Notes: a model not told the origin generated them from the sequence alone. A stretch of 9,888 nt of DNA from Candidatus Acidulodesulfobacterium acidiphilum (GCA_008534395.1 SHMQ01000052.1:1-9888), one strand, 5' to 3'; shown: positions 566-9,747, counted from the stretch's first letter. Program-made: numbers and translations.

Positions 566-961
566 TCAATAGGGGTAAAAATACGGATAAGGAGCAAAAG
601 GCGTCCATTGCCAGTTCTGCCATACCCAGCAGGGCTGCATATGCTGTCCTCTTTTAAACGCCCTATGCTGTTTTTTGCGGATGCCGGTTCTAAGCATATA
701 ATTTAAAACGCCTGAAGTAATGCCTTCTTTATGAAGTTTTATTATCTGCCTCGCCGTTAAGTAAAATATTTCATGCGAAGCCCTTAGTCTCTTAATAATA
801 GTAAGTTTAGGAACATGTCTTTTGCATAAATTAGCTATCTCTGAAATAGTCAAAGGCGGGGGTACCGGTTTAACGTAATAGGAACAGCCGCTTAGAGCAA
901 GACTTAATATAAAAGCTAAAAAAGTTATCGATATAATATATTTATATAAATTGAATTTCAT
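566..961 (-). CDS. Small outer-envelope lipoprotein with aromatic C-terminus
   Basis: The 131-residue product has a basic start, a hydrophobic stretch (residues 9-22) and a lipobox LSGC with lipidated Cys26, so it should be exported and anchored by signal peptidase II processing. Residues 37-92 (LTISEIANLCK ... SGVLNYMLRT) follow the helical pattern 'V-I-x-L-x-K-x-G-x-s-x-x-V-I-x-x-M' found in many small lipoproteins of unknown function: two helix pairs with S-x-x-x-F-x-L-(T/S)-x-x-x-I between them. The tail is basic (residues 95-105) and then rich in Trp, Pro and Tyr, ending PYPYFYPY. It lies 71 nt after the PIN gene in the same direction; no clear Shine-Dalgarno precedes ATG 961, so dependence on the upstream transcript is possible. 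Export is well supported; function is unknown. Confidence 0.75.
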   Translation of the reverse strand: MKFNLYKYIISITFLAFILSLALSGCSYYVKPVPPPLTISEIANLCKRHVPKLTIIKRLRASHEIFYLTARQIIKLHKEGITSGVLNYMLRTGIRKKQHRAFKRGQHMQPCWVWQNWQWTPFAPYPYFYPY

Positions 962-1032: not shown

Positions 1033-1500
1033 TCATAAAAATTTTTCAAAAACTTCTTCGGGCGTTATAACCGAAGTGAATAAATGAATATTTCCATATT
1101 TAACGACATCCGTTTTGGGAATAACGATTGCATTTGCTTCAGACGATTTAGCAACTTCTATAAATTTTAAAAAATTACTATCTCCTAAATGAATTCCGTG
1201 CGTCTGTATTTTTTTTGCCGTAACGAATTTACCGTATTCTTTTAAAAAAGCGAACAGATAATCGATATTCTTTTTTTCTATTTTTTTACTATGAATTTCG
1301 GTAAAATATTCTAAATAAATTCTGTCGTCTAGAGCGATATCGTATCTTCCGTCTATTAGATAGTCTATAAGCCGCCCACAACAACTTTCCGCATTAAGAA
1401 CTCCTTCGATAAATACTTCCGTTCTCAACACGAAAAGATATTTATCTATTTCTTTTTTGAGGCGTTTATAAAATTTAGCTAAATTATTCCCTTGAGTCAT
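1033..1500 (-). CDS. PIN-domain toxin-like protein with eroded active site
   Basis: The 155-residue product resembles the PIN_3/COG1569 toxins (putative RNases of type II toxin-antitoxin pairs). The pattern VLRTEVFIEGVLN (24-36) matches their VLDTNVLVSGLL; GRLIDYLIDGRYDIALDDRIYLEYFTEI (split here as residues 42-69) matches the next two helices and strand; DSNFLKFIEVA (107-117) and VITPEEVFEKF (144-154) match the C-terminal half. The first catalytic Asp is Arg26 and the Asn after it is Glu28; the TG-(D/N) motif is IPK (127-129). Glu64 and Asp107 remain. It also has about 20 extra N-terminal residues. The gene overlaps the antitoxin by 17 nt, has no evident Shine-Dalgarno and is probably translationally coupled. 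Family assignment is fairly secure; loss of RNase activity is inferred. Confidence 0.7.
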   Translation of the reverse strand: MTQGNNLAKFYKRLKKEIDKYLFVLRTEVFIEGVLNAESCCGRLIDYLIDGRYDIALDDRIYLEYFTEIHSKKIEKKNIDYLFAFLKEYGKFVTAKKIQTHGIHLGDSNFLKFIEVAKSSEANAIVIPKTDVVKYGNIHLFTSVITPEEVFEKFL

Positions 1501-1729
1501 TGTTTATTGTGGTTTCTTTAATAGCCGATTCTCTTAAATCTCTTACCGCTTTTTTTAATTTTATAGATTGCCATGAATTGAGCGTTTCGTTTAAATTTTT
1601 CGGGTCAATCGGTATCATTAAAGCAACGGGCATTCCATTCTGCGTAACTATAATCTCTTGTTCTTCTTTAAGGTCGTCGATTACTTTATTCGTATATAGT
1701 CTTAAATCTCGAGAAGGTACAAATTTCAT
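1484..1729 (-). CDS. Phd/YefM-family antitoxin
   Basis: The 81-residue product begins MKFVPSRDLRLYTNKVIDDL and continues EIIVTQNGMPVALMIPID, the Phd/YefM fold signature (S-x-x-x-L-R ... (I/V)-x-V-T-x-N-G-x-P-V-A-x-(L/M)-x-P). Members bind their own promoter as dimers with the N-terminal half and neutralise the toxin with the C-terminal half, here the charged helix at residues 46-72. ATG 1729 follows a good GAGGAGAG (1744-1737). The 3' end overlaps the PIN gene by 17 nt, standard antitoxin-first order. Pairing of a Phd-type antitoxin with a PIN toxin is common. Its promoter is the Pho-type site at 1798-1852, so control may be by phosphate as well as by autorepression. Confidence 0.85.
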   Translation of the reverse strand: MKFVPSRDLRLYTNKVIDDLKEEQEIIVTQNGMPVALMIPIDPKNLNETLNSWQSIKLKKAVRDLRESAIKETTINNDSRE

Positions 1730-1867: not shown

Positions 1868-3889
1868 CTATTTTTCTCCGCAAAACTTATTGCAAATTCG
1901 TTCCTGACAGTTAAATTTTGAATCTTCCCGAGTATTGAACGTATATTTATCTTCTTTAAGAAGCCATGATTTTAAGTCGTCGTTAATGTTGCATTCAATA
2001 ATATCCATAAGTTTTTTTTTAGACTCGGGGTCTTTGATTTCAAAAAAAAGTTCTATTCTTTTATCGAGATTTCTCGTCATTAAATCTGCGGTGGAAATAA
2101 AAACTTTTTCATTTCCTGCATTATAAAAATAGTATATCCTTGCGTGTTCCAAAAACCTTCCTATTATGCTTTTAACCTCGATATTTTCGCTTAAATCCTT
2201 TATACCCGGCTTTATCGAACATATGCCTCTTATTATCATTTTTACTAAAACGCCCGCCGAACTTGCCGCGTAAATTTTATCTGTAATTTCGGCGTCGAAT
2301 ACAGAATTTACCTTGATTATTATTTCGGCGCGTCTTCCGGCTTTAGCCTCGCTTATTTCAAAATCGAACAGCTCGGCGAGCGTTCGCCTCAGATTTACGG
2401 GGGCTAACTTTATTCTGCTCCATTTAAATATGTCGGAGTAGCCCGTCATATAATTGAACATATTGGATATCTCCGAACATGCCTCTTCTTCCGCGGTAAT
2501 ATAATCGATATCCGTATAAATATTTGCGGTATATTCGTTGTAGTTACCGGTAGAAATATGGGCGTATCTTACGATTTTACCTTCTTCTTTTCTTGTCGCA
2601 AGAAATATTTTCGCATGTATTTTTTTATCGGAAAAACCGTAAGTCACGATGCATCCAGCCTCTTCCAGTTTCTTGGCCCATTTTACGTTTTTCTCTTCGT
2701 CAAACCTCGCTTTGAGTTCCACTACCGCACATACGTGCTTTCCTTTTAATGCCGCATTTGCCAGCGCTTCAACTATTTTGGAGTTTTTATCCGTCCTGTA
2801 TAATGTCATTTTTATAGAAAGCACGTTTTTATCGTTCCCAGCCTCGGCAATCCACTTAGATATAATTTTAAAATCGTTGCAAGGCCTGAAAAGCAAAATA
2901 TCTTTCTTTTTTGCGATATCGAAAATACTTTTATTTTTCAGGTAGTCGGGGATTGCCGGTTTGAAGGGCTTGTAATATAAACCCCTGCTTTCTTCTTTAA
3001 TATTAAACAGGAACGACAGATTAAGGGGGCGGTTCGTTATATAAAAGTCTTCGTCTTCATAATCCCCGTTTATCCTTAAATAATATTTGATTTTATTCGT
3101 TAAAACGTTGCTAATTTCTCTGTTTATTTCGACTCTTACGATGTTGCTCCACTTTCTTGCCGAAATGTTTTCTTCTATTGCGGACAGAAGGTCCTCCACG
3201 TCCTCGTGTTTTATAGGCAAATCGGCGTTTCTGGTTACCCTGAATAAAAAATAATCCTTTACGGCGTAACCCGGAAATATTTTATCTATATACCTTTCTA
3301 TAATGTTTTCCGGAGTAAAATAATATGATTTTTTAGATTTTTTAATTTTATAAACCTTCTTTACGTTTTCTGGAAGAATAATCAAAGCATCATATACTTT
3401 GTTTTCGATTTCTAATTCTACGAAAAAACATAATTTTAAATTAAAAATAAACGGTATTTTTTCTATTTCGGAAATCATAACGGGAGTAATTACCGGCGAT
3501 ATTTCCGTATCGAATATTTCGTCTAAAATTTCCATATCGAAAGGCTCTAACGGAAATATAAAAATCTTAAGCTTGATAAGTTCGGAGGCGAGAGCGTTAA
3601 AAATCGAAGCACTTTTTTCGTCCTGCTTATGAACTCTAATGGAAATTTTATTTAACGCTTCGGATGGACTAAAACCGGATATATCTTTTTCTTTGTAACC
3701 GGCAGATATCAAATCCTTCAGTCCCGCCACCCTTATCATAAAAAACTCGTCTAAGTTAGCGGAATGTATAGCCAAAAATTTAAGTCTTTCGCATAACGGA
3801 ACGGTTTCGTCTGCCGCCTGCATAAGCACTCTTTCGTTAAAATCGAGCCAGCTCAATTCCCTGTTGTTATAAACGCTAACGCTATTCAT
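1868..3889 (-). CDS. ppk1: Polyphosphate kinase PPK1
   Basis: PPK1 reversibly transfers the gamma-phosphate of ATP to polyphosphate, usually at the inner membrane. Numbering from the TTG at 3895 (675 residues): the N-terminal signature NRELSWLDFNERVL is at 11-24; KMTLYRT at 362-368; KKIHAK at 424-429 with His427 as the expected phosphorylated histidine; STGNYNEYTA at 448-457; and FLEHARIYYF at 581-590 with the second conserved His584, followed by TADLMTRNLDKRIE (602-615). Length is close to the usual 690-720. ATG 3889 is preferred: it overlaps the preceding ppx-like gene by 8 nt and suits translational coupling, whereas TTG 3895 is the longer alternative; neither has a clear Shine-Dalgarno. 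It is the last gene of the polyphosphate operon, with no intrinsic terminator seen after its TAG. Identification is firm. Confidence 0.96.
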   Translation of the reverse strand: MNSVSVYNNRELSWLDFNERVLMQAADETVPLCERLKFLAIHSANLDEFFMIRVAGLKDLISAGYKEKDISGFSPSEALNKISIRVHKQDEKSASIFNALASELIKLKIFIFPLEPFDMEILDEIFDTEISPVITPVMISEIEKIPFIFNLKLCFFVELEIENKVYDALIILPENVKKVYKIKKSKKSYYFTPENIIERYIDKIFPGYAVKDYFLFRVTRNADLPIKHEDVEDLLSAIEENISARKWSNIVRVEINREISNVLTNKIKYYLRINGDYEDEDFYITNRPLNLSFLFNIKEESRGLYYKPFKPAIPDYLKNKSIFDIAKKKDILLFRPCNDFKIISKWIAEAGNDKNVLSIKMTLYRTDKNSKIVEALANAALKGKHVCAVVELKARFDEEKNVKWAKKLEEAGCIVTYGFSDKKIHAKIFLATRKEEGKIVRYAHISTGNYNEYTANIYTDIDYITAEEEACSEISNMFNYMTGYSDIFKWSRIKLAPVNLRRTLAELFDFEISEAKAGRRAEIIIKVNSVFDAEITDKIYAASSAGVLVKMIIRGICSIKPGIKDLSENIEVKSIIGRFLEHARIYYFYNAGNEKVFISTADLMTRNLDKRIELFFEIKDPESKKKLMDIIECNINDDLKSWLLKEDKYTFNTREDSKFNCQERICNKFCGEK

Positions 3890-5414
3890 AATCAAGTTTT
3901 ACGGCAAGTTCTACCGGAATGCCGAATGTTTCGAGAAAATCCGTCGATTTTAATTTAAAAAACTTTATCTCCAAAAAAGGCGTAACCGATGAAACTGCCG
4001 TAATTTTTACGACTTTATCCAATACTTCTATGTTTATATCCTTTATTAACTGCATATGACCGGCGTCTAAAGCGTCGGCTATCTTTAAAATCGAAATTAC
4101 CTTTTTTACGGTAAGCTCTCTTTCCGGACTTATCCGGTAATGCGCAGTATCCGAAGGACGATATTCGCCGCTTCCGTGAAAAAATGCGCAAAATGCTATA
4201 TTTTCGAGTATCTCCCTGTTTAAACCGGGTATATTCAAAGAATTAATTATTCTGTAAGAATATTCACGATGGTCGTTTATATTATTATAATACCCGACAT
4301 CGTGAAGAATAGCCGAACCGACAAGGACGGCACGCTCATCCGGCTTAATAATAAGAATATTTTTCAACGAACGCCGTATTTTTTCGGAAAACATAAGAAC
4401 CTGTTTAGCGTGTTTGTCGTCGAGGTTATATTTTTTTCCGAAGTAAAAAAAATATTCTATTAATTTTTTATTAAATTTCTTTTCTTTCGTTTTTATAAGA
4501 TAAAACCGCGTAAGCTGGTCGGAAAAGTTCTGGTCGGAGAAGTAAAGTTTTTTTGCTCCTGCCGATTTCATTATAGATATATAAACATATAAAACGGGCT
4601 TTAAAATCTTAGCGTCGTAATCGTTTATAGAAATTTTAGCGCAGATTTCCGAAATAGAGGACGTTTTTATTTTCGAATAAAGATCCGTTAAACCCGCAAT
4701 ATCGAAAAAATTCCCTTCCGGTTTAAATATTTCCAAAAGCAGGCCGGTAGAAGTATCCGAACCTATGACCGAGGTAATTTTATCGTACTCTGTACAACTT
4801 TTTTTAAGCAGTAAAACAAGCTTATTTATATATTGCTCGTAAGCCCTATATTTAACGCTTTCGTCTATATCGCTAAACAATTGGGCGATTCTTAAAGCGC
4901 CGTAAGGAAGAGTCGACGAAAAAAGGCTGATTTTATGTTTTCTTATGTTAATACCTACGTTTCCGCTGGACAGATTGACGAGCACCGACCCTTTGCTTTC
5001 TAATTTTTTAAACCCTTTAAGCGATTCGCTTACTCCGAGATATTTTATATAAAGTTCTTCTTCCGCGTCTATTATTTCAAGCTCTATACCCGTCTTTACC
5101 CTTATATGGTTTATAAAAAAATGTTTGTTTTCCGCGTCTCTGACGGCGCTAGTACATACCGCCCTATAGTTGCCGTTTATATCATATTCTTTAAATTTTA
5201 GTTTAATATTGCCAAAAATTTCGGCGGCCTTGTAAACGGTATCGAGAGTTATATACTTTTTAAGAAACGTGTCCATTCCGATACTTAACGGAAAAATTAT
5301 ATACTCGAGCGTTTTTATGCGCCGTCCGGCGTCAGAATTTTTTGAAACTTCAGAAATTTGGCATCTTATACTGCCCGCCCCTATATCTACGATTCCAAAA
5401 ATACCGGATTTCAT
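3882..5414 (-). CDS. Ppx/GppA-HD paralogue with degenerate phosphate loops
   Basis: The 510-residue protein aligns end to end with the preceding Ppx. Its actin-like ATPase half (1-310) is changed at key places: loop 1 is DIGAGS (10-15) instead of DAGSNS; loop 2 is NLSSGNVG (147-154) instead of DIGGGSAE, losing both acidic residues; and the TGGT loop is GSDTST (218-223). The Glu pair in DAEEE (116-120) survives. The C-terminal HD domain looks intact: KHAKQV (334-339, His335), LHDVG (370-374, His371-Asp372), His382, His413 and ADALD (446-450, Asp447). The start ATG overlaps the upstream stop as ATGA. I infer reduced or absent exopolyphosphatase activity and a possible regulatory or HD-hydrolase role; a different ligand (polyphosphate, nucleotide or alarmone) is equally open. 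Membership of the family is secure. Confidence 0.85.
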   Translation of the reverse strand: MKSGIFGIVDIGAGSIRCQISEVSKNSDAGRRIKTLEYIIFPLSIGMDTFLKKYITLDTVYKAAEIFGNIKLKFKEYDINGNYRAVCTSAVRDAENKHFFINHIRVKTGIELEIIDAEEELYIKYLGVSESLKGFKKLESKGSVLVNLSSGNVGINIRKHKISLFSSTLPYGALRIAQLFSDIDESVKYRAYEQYINKLVLLLKKSCTEYDKITSVIGSDTSTGLLLEIFKPEGNFFDIAGLTDLYSKIKTSSISEICAKISINDYDAKILKPVLYVYISIMKSAGAKKLYFSDQNFSDQLTRFYLIKTKEKKFNKKLIEYFFYFGKKYNLDDKHAKQVLMFSEKIRRSLKNILIIKPDERAVLVGSAILHDVGYYNNINDHREYSYRIINSLNIPGLNREILENIAFCAFFHGSGEYRPSDTAHYRISPERELTVKKVISILKIADALDAGHMQLIKDINIEVLDKVVKITAVSSVTPFLEIKFFKLKSTDFLETFGIPVELAVKLDYE

Positions 5415-6949
5415 TGAGCGTTAAGAAATACGTACTTTCCGGTTATTTTTTCCATTAAATCTTTTTTAGTTTCTAAAGATTCGACTTCTAAAAGTATATC
5501 TCCTTTATAAACGGGATTAAGCGTAATAATTTTATCCGTAACCTCCGGCTTTATATCTTCAATGTTTCCTTTATGCTCCCTGTCGAGCGCGTCCACAACT
5601 CTTAATATAGATGCAAGCTTAATTACGGCGTCGATATCTCCTTCTCTTATATCTTTGTATATATCATGATGTTTTTTTGGAGGACTTTTTCTATGGTATC
5701 TTGCAATATTGGCGATTATCGCCTTTTCGTAGTCGCTAAAACCGGCTAAGTCGATGTTTTTTATTAAATAAAGCGAATGCTTATGATGTTTTGACATCGA
5801 CACGAAATTTCCGATATCGTGAAGCATGGCGGCGGCAATAAGATATTTAAGATATTCTTTTGATATCCCGTAAGATTCTTCGAGCGCATAGAAAAGTTTT
5901 TCGGATAAATAGGCGACCTGTTTAGCATGTTTTTCGTCAAAGTTAAATTTTTTGCCGATTTCGCTGAACATTGGAAACGGAAAATCTGTTTCGTATTTTT
6001 TCTCCTGTTTTTTTACCGCAGTCATAAAAACTCCTTTTTTATTTAATTCATCTATTAAAAGACCGCTTCTTAATCCTCCTGAAAAGGAATAAAATCCTTG
6101 AAGACGAAAATAAGTCAACATTTCATAAAGTATTACGGCGGCAGGAATAATAATGTCGGCTCTGCCTGCATCCGCCGATTTTATTTTTTTTATGTCGTCG
6201 GCAGAACTGTTTTTATTTGCGTCGATAAAATCTTTCAGAAACGATTTTGGAACATAATTTATTCTAGAATCCGCCTTTTTACCGTTAAAGCCGCAATAAA
6301 CGGCTGCCAAGTTATTTACCGTGCCGCCGGTACAAATTGCTTTTTTAAAAAATAGGTTAGGGAAATCTTTAAAACTGTTCTTTATAAAAGTCTTCATAGC
6401 CGGTATTTTCAAATTATACGGCGGTCTTTTTTTAGAAAAATCGTTTTTAAGCCTGAGGCAGCCGAGCGGCGTACTATAAGACTGCAAAATCTCGCCTCGC
6501 TCTACTAATGTAATTTCAGCGCTTCCACCGCCGATATCCGCTATTACGGAATTGGATTTATTTAGATTAAAATTGCTTGAAACGGCTAAATACGACAACC
6601 TTGCTTCTTCTTCTCCGCTTATTATATTCAGGTCTATTCCGCAGGTTTGTTTAATTTCCGACGCAATCTCTTCTTTATTTTTTGCATGCCTGAAAACCGC
6701 AGTTCCAACCGCTTTTACCGTGTCGGTTTTATTTAATTCTATAATCTTTTTTATATAATTGAAGGCTTTAAAAAGTTTTTCTTTAGATTCGCCGCTTATA
6801 TAACCCGTCCTGAAGCAGTCGTCGCCTATTCTCGCAGAAACCTTATATTCGTCTATAAGGCTGCAGTTTCCGTCTTTAGTTTCTACTATCTTAAGCTTTA
6901 TGGAGTTGCTTCCCGCATCTATAATCCCTAATCTGAACGATTTTTTCAT
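5411..6949 (-). CDS. ppx: Exopolyphosphatase Ppx/GppA with C-terminal HD domain
   Basis: This enzyme class removes terminal phosphate from polyphosphate (Ppx) or from pppGpp (GppA). The 512 residues match the full length of E. coli Ppx (513). Actin-like domains: IIDAGSNSIKL (9-19, phosphate loop 1), IISGEEEARLSYLAV (109-123, holding the catalytic Glu), IADIGGGSAEITL (136-148, loop 2) and CTGGTVNNLAAVY (206-218). The C-terminal part is a true HD domain: KHAKQV (340-345, His341), AAMLHDIGN (373-381, His377-Asp378), HHKHS (388-392), RYHRK (417-421) and VVDALDR (451-457, Asp453); E. coli Ppx carries HE instead. It follows the CHAD gene by 25 nt and overlaps the next gene by 4 nt. The Shine-Dalgarno before ATG 6949 is weak. 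Ppx versus GppA cannot be told by eye; the ppk1/CHAD context favours polyphosphate. Confidence 0.93.
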   Translation of the reverse strand: MKKSFRLGIIDAGSNSIKLKIVETKDGNCSLIDEYKVSARIGDDCFRTGYISGESKEKLFKAFNYIKKIIELNKTDTVKAVGTAVFRHAKNKEEIASEIKQTCGIDLNIISGEEEARLSYLAVSSNFNLNKSNSVIADIGGGSAEITLVERGEILQSYSTPLGCLRLKNDFSKKRPPYNLKIPAMKTFIKNSFKDFPNLFFKKAICTGGTVNNLAAVYCGFNGKKADSRINYVPKSFLKDFIDANKNSSADDIKKIKSADAGRADIIIPAAVILYEMLTYFRLQGFYSFSGGLRSGLLIDELNKKGVFMTAVKKQEKKYETDFPFPMFSEIGKKFNFDEKHAKQVAYLSEKLFYALEESYGISKEYLKYLIAAAMLHDIGNFVSMSKHHKHSLYLIKNIDLAGFSDYEKAIIANIARYHRKSPPKKHHDIYKDIREGDIDAVIKLASILRVVDALDREHKGNIEDIKPEVTDKIITLNPVYKGDILLEVESLETKKDLMEKITGKYVFLNAQ

Positions 6950-6974: not shown

Positions 6975-7856
6975 CTATACGTTAAGCGCGCGGATAAAAG
7001 ATTTTATATCTTTATCTTCTTCAAAATTTTCTATAAGTTCTATGACTTTTTTCCTGTCTGCGTTTAACGCTTTTTTTATTTCATTTCTTATAGGCTTACT
7101 CTTATCTATTAATTTTTTATAAATATTTATCTGAACTATTTTATCTTGAGCGTCGCCTATGGTTTTCTGAATTTTTTCCAAGCGGCTTATTGTTTGAACT
7201 ACAATATCTTCTCTAATCAAATCGGAAGAAAATTCCATAATATACCTAAATTCTTTAAAAATAAGCCTTAATATATGAAGTTCTTCATTGTCTAACGAAG
7301 TAGTTTTTATTATAATCGTTAATTTTTTGTAAGTCTTTTTTATCGTTAAAACTAAACGTTCAAGAGGCTCCGCATCGTTCAATTTATTATCGAATAAATC
7401 TCCATTCTTAAGCGCATTTTCAAAATCGGCAAGAAAACCGCTAAACTCCTGAGATCCTATAACGGATAAAATTTTGCCTTGTTCTATTCTTATTTCTTTT
7501 TCTATTTTTAGCCTTATTTCATCCTTTAATAGCGCAGGAACTTCATCTTTAACGTATAAATCCATAGACTTAAGAAGAACGTCTAAATCTCTTTTCCTTT
7601 GAGTTTCTTTCATTATTTTAGTTAATTTCTTTTTAAAATATATACCTCTGCCGCTAAGCTGCTGTCGGAATATTTTTAAAAGCGTTTTAATGCGCCTAAT
7701 AGCAACCCTGAATTTATGAAGGTTTTCGCCGTTTTTTCCTTCTATAATTCCGGGCATTTCCGTTTTTATCTCTTCAAGCAGGGAATTTAATATTTTTACC
7801 GTAATTTCTTCCGACGTCATATTTTTATTTAAACCGTAAAATGATTTTATAGGCAA
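6975..7856 (-). CDS. CHAD-domain protein (polyphosphate binding)
   Basis: CHAD (conserved histidine alpha-helical domain) proteins are basic helical bundles that bind inorganic polyphosphate. The 293-residue product shows the repeated signature twice: LHKFRVAIRRIKTLL (46-60, His47) and LHILRLIFKEFRYIMEF (193-209, His194), plus RDLDVLL (89-95) and IGDAQD (233-238) that end the two half-bundles. No CYTH triphosphatase domain precedes it, so it is a stand-alone CHAD. It has many Lys/Arg residues and no signal peptide, so it is probably cytoplasmic. It is the first gene of the operon with ppx, the ppx-like gene and ppk1, which supports a role in organising or localising polyphosphate granules. 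The start is TTG 7856, set by GGAGG at 7865-7869. Confidence 0.92.
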   Translation of the reverse strand: MPIKSFYGLNKNMTSEEITVKILNSLLEEIKTEMPGIIEGKNGENLHKFRVAIRRIKTLLKIFRQQLSGRGIYFKKKLTKIMKETQRKRDLDVLLKSMDLYVKDEVPALLKDEIRLKIEKEIRIEQGKILSVIGSQEFSGFLADFENALKNGDLFDNKLNDAEPLERLVLTIKKTYKKLTIIIKTTSLDNEELHILRLIFKEFRYIMEFSSDLIREDIVVQTISRLEKIQKTIGDAQDKIVQINIYKKLIDKSKPIRNEIKKALNADRKKVIELIENFEEDKDIKSFIRALNV

Positions 7857-8484: not shown

Positions 8485-9747
8485 ATGAGCGAAAATTTAC
8501 AGTATTTTAGAGCGATATACAATTTTCTGCCTTCCGAAAAAGAAAGAAAAATCGTCTTAATAACCGGCGCTCGTCAGACCGGAAAAACCACTCTTGCAAA
8601 AAATAAATACAATACGTTGCGTTATATCAATCTGGATTCTCCGGAAATACGGGACGGCATTTCGCAGATTACGGCCTCAAACTGGCATAAAGATATAGGC
8701 AAAGCTATACTTGACGAAGCGCAGAAAGAACCTTCGCTGTTCGAAAAGGTTAAATATGCTTATGACGGAGGAAATCTCGATTTTCAAGTAATTCTCGGTT
8801 CAAGTCAAATTCTTTTATTGAAAAAGATAAGGGAATCGCTTGCGGGAAGAATATCGCTTTATGAACTGTGGCCTTTAATGATGTCCGAGATATATGCCGG
8901 ACTAGGAGCTAAAATTATTAAACCGCCTCTTATAGACCGCATCCTTGAGGAAGAAGATTTTCATAAGCTTATGGAAAGTCTTCCATCTGTTTTAATAGGC
9001 GAAGAAGATATAAAATTAAAAGAAGCTCAGGAACACTTATTAAGATGGGGTGGAATGCCGTTCCTTTTAAGTATTAATAATGCATATGAAAGGCAAAAAT
9101 GGCTCAGAGATTATACTTATACATATTTAGAAAGAGATCTTGCAGATTTATCAAGAATTGAAGATTTGGAACCTTTTAAAAAATTTCAAACAATATCGGC
9201 TTTAAGAAATGCAAAACTTCTCAATTATTCCGAACTGGCTCGAGATGTCGGTATAAGCGTAGATACATCAAAGAGATATTTAGAATATCTGAAAATATCT
9301 TATCAAACTATACTGCTTCAACCTTACGGAACTAATATAACGAGTTCGGCTGTAAAAACCCCGAAGATTTACTGGCTTGACATTGGTTTATTAAGGCAGA
9401 TGACGGGCTTTTGGGGCGACGTGATTTCCGGTGATATATTTGAAACTTTGGTAATTTCCGAAATCTACAAATGGATAAAAACAATGCAGAAACCTGTCTC
9501 AATGTATTTTTATAGAACCCGCTCAGGATTAGAACTCGATATTCTTTTGAAAATAAATGAAAGAATAATAGGGATTGAAATTAAAAATCGCAGTATTGTA
9601 ACCCCTTCCGATTTAAGACCTATGAAAGCCGTAGCCGACGGTCTCGGCAAATTATGGAGCGGCGGTATTTTAGTTTATAACGGAGATAAAATAGACAAGA
9701 TTGCAGAACCGAATATCTGGATGATACCGTCAAGACGTCTGTTTTAA
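8485..9747 (+). CDS. AAA_14 / DUF4143 family ATPase
   Basis: The 420-residue product has the common bacterial and archaeal AAA_14-DUF4143 architecture. The P-loop GARQTGKTT is at 28-36, Walker B AILDEAQ at 74-80, a sensor-like ILGSSQ at 103-108 and the AGRISLYEL motif at 120-128. The linker GGMPFLL (189-195) and YLERDLADL (214-222) lead to a winged-helix-like segment YSELARDVGISVDTSKRYLE (248-267) and KIYWLDIGLLRQ (294-305). The C-terminus has a PD-(D/E)XK-like core: Asp352 in LELDILL and EIK at 365-367. Members are common, often patchily distributed and genomically solitary; the cellular role is not established. It stands alone, opposite to the polyphosphate operon. No intrinsic terminator is seen after its TAA. 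Confidence 0.9.
   Translation: MSENLQYFRAIYNFLPSEKERKIVLITGARQTGKTTLAKNKYNTLRYINLDSPEIRDGISQITASNWHKDIGKAILDEAQKEPSLFEKVKYAYDGGNLDFQVILGSSQILLLKKIRESLAGRISLYELWPLMMSEIYAGLGAKIIKPPLIDRILEEEDFHKLMESLPSVLIGEEDIKLKEAQEHLLRWGGMPFLLSINNAYERQKWLRDYTYTYLERDLADLSRIEDLEPFKKFQTISALRNAKLLNYSELARDVGISVDTSKRYLEYLKISYQTILLQPYGTNITSSAVKTPKIYWLDIGLLRQMTGFWGDVISGDIFETLVISEIYKWIKTMQKPVSMYFYRTRSGLELDILLKINERIIGIEIKNRSIVTPSDLRPMKAVADGLGKLWSGGILVYNGDKIDKIAEPNIWMIPSRRLF

Follow-up and report, generated by a model that had tools for sequence, protein, structure and literature searches.

In this study, we have examined a 9,888-nucleotide stretch of Candidatus Acidulodesulfobacterium acidiphilum (GCA_008534395.1, SHMQ01000052.1:1-9888; hereafter the window, meaning the whole stretch), which carries on its minus strand an operon encoding a CHAD-domain protein, PpxA, PpxB and polyphosphate kinase 1 (PPK1). 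PpxB (510 amino acids; 3882-5414, minus strand) is a Ppx/GppA-HD protein with degenerate loops, and its status as a pseudoenzyme is, as judged from its sequence, well supported. We lean, with modest confidence, towards PpxB being a conserved pseudo-exopolyphosphatase that would bind polyphosphate (or a phosphate-rich nucleotide), contact PPK1 and/or PpxA and regulate chain synthesis relative to breakdown. How bacterial PPK1 and Ppx avoid futile ATP cycling, and how chain length is set, are poorly understood; a conserved, co-inherited and non-catalytic Ppx lying between the two enzymes is a concrete candidate for their control.

The replaced phosphate loop of PpxB

The first-pass annotation had described the reading frame at 3882-5414 as the second Ppx of a tandem, with a degraded phosphate loop 2 and altered loop 1 and TGGT loop, and alignment confirmed this description. 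Loop 2 (4953-4976; this and the following elements are all on the minus strand), DIGGGSxE in its canonical form and DIGGGSAE in the neighbouring PpxA, reads NLSSGNVG (N147 to G154) in PpxB. Loop 1 (5364-5387; D10 to R17) reads DIGAGSIR as compared to DAGSNSIK in PpxA and DxGSNSxx generally in the alignment of E. coli Ppx, GppA and PpxA. The TGGT loop (4749-4766) reads IGSDTS, its last five residues aligning to CTGGT in PpxA and GASGT in E. coli. At the start of the inter-domain linker helix (4509-4538, SDQNFSDQLT), the conserved Arg of the GGLRxG or REG motif is also gone, GGLRSG of PpxA being replaced by QNFSDQ; the relatives of PpxB read SRxxFPxxL or similar here, and the motif Arg is missing from every one of them. 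PpxB also lacks the ARYHRKS stretch that is conserved in domain III of PpxA, and the two proteins share 28% identity. PpxB nevertheless belongs to the Ppx/GppA structural family, with 46 bits for PF02541 (cut-off 27; PpxA scores 166) and 40.3 bits for PF21447 (cut-off 27.3), PpxA also being above the cut-off of this HD-like domain III family. By its sequence it fails as a catalytic exopolyphosphatase, since neither the Asp nor the Glu of DxGG[GA]SxE is kept in any of 30 non-redundant PpxB. As it passes the Ppx-GppA Pfam cut-off, PpxB would be labelled an exopolyphosphatase by annotation, which calls for caution.

The full-length AlphaFold2 model of PpxB (mean predicted local distance difference test score 87) has the predicted Ppx fold, with two ASKHA domains, the HD-like helical domain and a small C-terminal domain. 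Foldseek returned E. coli Ppx as the best match of the model (E=5e-25), and whole-chain matches comprised the PPX or PPX/GppA proteins of E. coli, D. radiodurans, A. baumannii and H. pylori. With VIA-align, the model was superposed on 2FLO with a Z of 30.6 over 478 residues (root-mean-square deviation 7.9) and on 3MDQ with a Z of 32.4 over 296 residues (deviation 2.6). We attribute the large overall deviation to the two halves of the modelled protein, N- and C-terminal, being set differently about their hinge, which varies within the Ppx/GppA family (PMC11234463).

The degenerate loop is not peculiar to the window. Conservation was counted over 30 non-redundant PpxB and 32 PpxA sequences, and orthologues, rather than keeping canonical loops, share the replacement: N-x-[SA]-S-G-N is found in 27/30 PpxB from Deferribacterota and Ca. 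Acidulodesulfobacteriota, with no variation at S150 or G151, N152 retained in 29 sequences and N147 in 27, whereas PpxA reads DxGGG[ST]xE in 32/32. In loop 1, R17, at the position of H14 in D. radiodurans PPX (DrPPX), is invariant in PpxB, and the Asp has become Asn in 25/30, being kept in five, among which is the window's genus. The same loop 2 occurs in congeners (75-97% protein identity) and in more than 40 further loci, and comparison with congeners gives ratios of nonsynonymous to synonymous substitution rates (dN/dS) of 0.08-0.13 for PpxB (0.10-0.20 for PpxA, 0.07-0.13 for PPK1), which together rule out chance or sequencing error. Rather than merely decaying, loop 2 has, as the fixed replacement and the dN/dS indicate, been swapped for another loop that is itself under selection. 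That PpxB could be a functionless, decaying duplicate of PpxA would agree with its low PF02541 score and lost motifs, but we hold this to be vanishingly improbable given a dN/dS of about 0.1, the fixed loop, the constant presence in the operon and an ancestry separate from that of PpxA; the fixed loop and the purifying selection seen in both phyla refute a pseudogene.

The distribution of conservation along the protein is also informative. Mean column entropy in PpxB is lower in the ASKHA half (1.54) than in the HD half (1.81), and PpxA shows the reverse pattern (1.59 in the HD half, 1.73 in the other), so that selection on PpxB acts mainly on the half from which catalysis has been lost. This ASKHA half carries a net positive charge in 22/22 operons and is more basic than that of PpxA in 19/22 (p=2e-4, kinship ignored), which fits binding of a polyanion.

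The claim that catalytic residues had been lost from the loops stood, and extends to the linker Arg, but it does not extend to the whole active site. E120, the catalytic Glu of helix 2 (5055-5057, minus strand; equivalent to E121 of E. coli and E114 of DrPPX), is invariant in 30/30 PpxB, and its partner R92 (5139-5141, minus strand; R86 in DrPPX, where it pairs with E114, PMC11234463) is Arg in 29/30 and Lys in 1/30. PpxB could therefore be an active enzyme acting on a new substrate, with a remodelled, metal-poor phosphate site and chemistry carried out by E120 and R92. The new loop is conserved like a catalytic loop, and there is a precedent in Rv1026 of M. tuberculosis, which is no polyphosphatase and yet a weak ATPase (PMC3411833). 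Rv1026, however, keeps the loop 2 Asp and Glu, both of which PpxB has lost; moreover, the loop 1 Asp is gone in most PpxB, the linker Arg in all, and the E120-R92 pair may just hold helix 1 in place, as the E114A structure of DrPPX suggests (PMC11234463). We regard a new-substrate enzyme as distinctly unlikely.

Operon, inheritance and ancestry

In the window, the operon starts with the CHAD-domain gene (6975-7856, minus strand; PF05235, 105 bits), which adjoins ppxA in all congeners examined. The canonical Ppx-HD exopolyphosphatase gene ppxA (5411-6949, minus strand; 512 amino acids), whose catalytic motifs are all intact, has a stop that overlaps the start of ppxB by 4 bases (ATGA). The last gene, ppk1 (1868-3895, minus strand; TIGR03705, 731 bits, cut-off 466), has a probable ATG start at 3889 that overlaps the ppxB stop by 8 bases, and this spacing of -8 is the commonest value across the family. 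The home genome encodes elsewhere a third Ppx, which is short and has canonical loops.

Relatives of PpxB are present in 9/16 genomes of the window's genus, in 6/7 of the family's second genus (which includes Ca. Acididesulfobacter diazotrophicus), in 37/50 of the Deferribacterota genomes searched (Denitrovibrio, Mucispirillum and other Deferribacterales), and in further genomes besides. The order ppxA-ppxB-ppk1 holds in every locus long enough to read, each operon has a canonical PpxA, and ppxA and ppxB are never more than 29 bases apart; in 50/69 loci, a count in which some records occur twice, they overlap by 4 bases (ATGA). Across the home phylum, the three genes are all present or all absent, in such a way that 15/30 genomes have them and the PpxB set is identical to the PPK1 set (kinship ignored); PpxB without PpxA was found in no genome examined, except where a contig end intervenes. 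In Denitrovibrio sp. BM704 (L044 8073-10085, and L125), the PPK1 frame is split in two, through a frameshift, an assembly error or real loss. In the trees of PpxA, PpxB and PPK1 alike, the window's genus groups with L110, L042 and L121 and the sister genus with L046 and L129, the second grouping having uneven support across the three trees. These same two placements suggest that the whole operon was acquired twice, having moved as a unit, and the distances of PpxA and PpxB correlate (r=0.81). The division of labour proposed at the outset, PpxA being active and PpxB non-catalytic, is supported by a loop fixed in two phyla, a canonical PpxA, and genes that overlap and are inherited together.

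The implied descent of PpxB from a copy of the neighbouring ppxA had to be abandoned. PpxA and PpxB each form one clade (each 100/100), and a tree in which they are sisters is rejected by the approximately unbiased (AU) test (p=7e-6); tree and test together also reject a recent tandem duplication of ppxA as the origin of PpxB. PpxB instead shares a clade (100/99) with six further Ppx-HD proteins whose catalytic motifs are damaged in differing ways (L112, L113, L115, L118, L127 and L130), five of the six being encoded directly upstream of ppk1. Among canonical Ppx-HD loci outside these operons, ppk1 is rarely the immediate neighbour (L137, L144 and the L130/L131 pair, in which ppk1 separates an active-looking Ppx from the degenerate one). 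The three near-complete genomes G214, G351 and G045 encode PPK1 but have no PF02541 member other than the degenerate protein; polyphosphate breakdown inferred from this sole Ppx call would be doubtful. As the clade adjoins ppk1 even in genomes without a canonical Ppx, its common denominator is PPK1 rather than PpxA. Since PpxB is not the sister of PpxA and belongs to this wider ppk1-linked lineage, PPK1 is at least as likely as PpxA to be its partner. At L138 2779-5114, in an unrelated genome, a canonical Ppx and one with altered loops form a tandem of their own, which is cut by a contig end.

The main rival to a PPK1-linked regulator, with which it is compatible, is that PpxB pairs obligately with PpxA as the non-catalytic half of a heterodimer, offering a second C-terminal polyphosphate-binding surface while PpxA alone catalyses and PPK1 is only co-transcribed. 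Such an arrangement would suit the ATGA coupling, the absence of PpxB without PpxA in the genomes examined (contig ends aside) and the correlated trees, and the characterised members of the family are dimers (PMC3411833, PMC11234463). We nevertheless consider it unlikely: the wider clade has a degenerate Ppx upstream of ppk1 in genomes that lack a canonical Ppx, PpxB is by origin not simply one side of a split homodimer (AU p=7e-6), and PpxB has lost the ARYHRKS stretch that PpxA retains in domain III. Our preference for a regulator linked to PPK1 comes from the wider clade, which stays next to ppk1 even where an active Ppx is lacking.

PpxB has the predicted four-domain Ppx fold but not the residues that handle metal and phosphate and on which hydrolysis depends, and as a PPK1-linked regulator it would be made, through translational coupling, together with active PpxA and PPK1. 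A polyphosphate chain or a phosphate-rich nucleotide, as the putative ligand, would be held without hydrolysis in its basic cleft, and by touching PPK1 and/or PpxA, whichever is the partner and in whichever direction the control runs, PpxB would tune chain synthesis against breakdown. Several observations weigh against this reading. E120 and R92, the one invariant and the other nearly so, are both catalytic residues, which leaves room for a residual or altered reaction. The position in the operon also fits co-regulation without contact. In the window's own operon, the N-terminal half of PpxA is more basic than that of PpxB, and basic charge, when checked as a marker of the wider degenerate clade, does not hold outside PpxB. 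More tentatively still, and with more doubt than belief, PpxB could be the founding member of a class of subunits that regulate PPK1: catalytically dead proteins of the Ppx fold, fixed upstream of ppk1 in several lineages, which would sense the polyphosphate chain or an alarmone through a converted active site and would switch PPK1, together with PpxA where there is one, inside a single complex for synthesis and degradation.

Elsewhere in the window, a PhdYefM-like antitoxin and a PIN-domain protein, probably a toxin-antitoxin pair, are encoded by overlapping genes directly downstream of ppk1 (1033-1729, minus strand). At 566-961 (minus strand) lies the gene of a 131-residue protein whose start resembles that of a lipoprotein and which has no match in Pfam, and an AAA_14/DUF4143 ATPase gene (8485-9747, plus strand) is divergent from the operon.

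The HD-like domain

The first-pass annotation had also observed that PpxB keeps its candidate HD metal ligands, and this is correct for the species of the window. The domain (Ppx-GppA_III/HD; 4014-4439, minus strand), above the cut-offs of PF21447 and PF01966, contains all six candidates (H335, H371, D372, H382, H413 and D447). It is not correct across the family, where the core four (H335, H371, D372 and D447) are complete in 15/30 PpxB as compared to 26/32 PpxA. Among PpxB orthologues, the HD ligands are less well conserved than the dead loop 2. They have been replaced in at least three separate branches, with clear loss in all Mucispirillum and in other gut Deferribacterota; the position of the HD pair reads LLFQVG or LLYQVG in Mucispirillum and LSDVG in the Denitrovibrio group. 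PpxA of the Denitrovibrio group (L043-L045, L079-L086) has itself lost the HD pair (LLRDIG), its catalytic loops being canonical. In part of the sister genus (L017-L019, L059 and L060), an Asn-rich insert of about 90 residues interrupts the HD-like domain of PpxB after the H413 position, and L040 has a shorter insert at the same place.

These data bear on the proposal that PpxB is an HD-domain phosphohydrolase, acting for example on a nucleotide second messenger, on a dead Ppx scaffold. The complete set of six ligands in the window protein and the PF01966 score speak for it. The losses in at least three branches, all Mucispirillum included, contradict it as a function of the whole family, PpxB is less conserved in its HD half than in the other, and the presence of the same ligands in most PpxA means that they are no speciality of PpxB. 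The proposal is weakened accordingly, and we now judge it very unlikely.

Comparison with known systems

In the open-access literature, we found no matching description of a degenerate Ppx paired with PPK1, of Ppx pseudoenzymes or of Mucispirillum polyphosphate genes, and the nearest comparisons come from characterised Ppx/GppA proteins. E. coli Ppx (1U6Z/2FLO) and GppA resemble PpxB in their four-domain fold and length, and their Glu121 and helix-1 Arg are retained in PpxB; ppx and ppk of E. coli also share one operon. PpxB differs from E. coli Ppx in lacking the equivalents of D143, G145, G146, S148 and E150 and the linker Arg, and its gene lies upstream of ppk rather than downstream and is preceded by a separate active Ppx. 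Mutants of E. coli Ppx at E121, D143 or E150 keep only residual activity (PMC5417653). A sequence search gives DrPPX (8JGO-8JGU, PMC11234463) as the closest full-length homologue of solved structure (2.6e-14); in it, Mg2+, water and the chain are bound by D7, D136, E143, T10, N11, S12, G139, S141 and R271. PpxB keeps the R86-E114 pair but has lost the equivalents of D136, E143 and S141, and most PpxB have also lost that of D7.

Non-enzymatic polyphosphate binders are already known from polyphosphate gene clusters in the form of the CHAD proteins, one of which is encoded in the window's operon, but these have an all-helical fold unrelated to that of PpxB (PMC6537752). Within the Ppx/GppA family, yeast Rtg2p is a protein whose known role is regulatory; it is eukaryotic, belongs to no polyphosphate operon, and keeps the equivalents of E121 and D143 (E137 and D158), with E150 replaced by Gln (PMC5417653). 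Rv1026, like PpxB a paralogue of an active Ppx, has undetectable polyphosphate hydrolysis, and differs in its retained catalytic residues and weak ATPase activity; the accessible portion of its report describes no ppx-ppk operon (PMC3411833). Rtg2p and Rv1026 are precedents for members of this family that are not polyphosphatases, and both keep more of the catalytic set than PpxB does.

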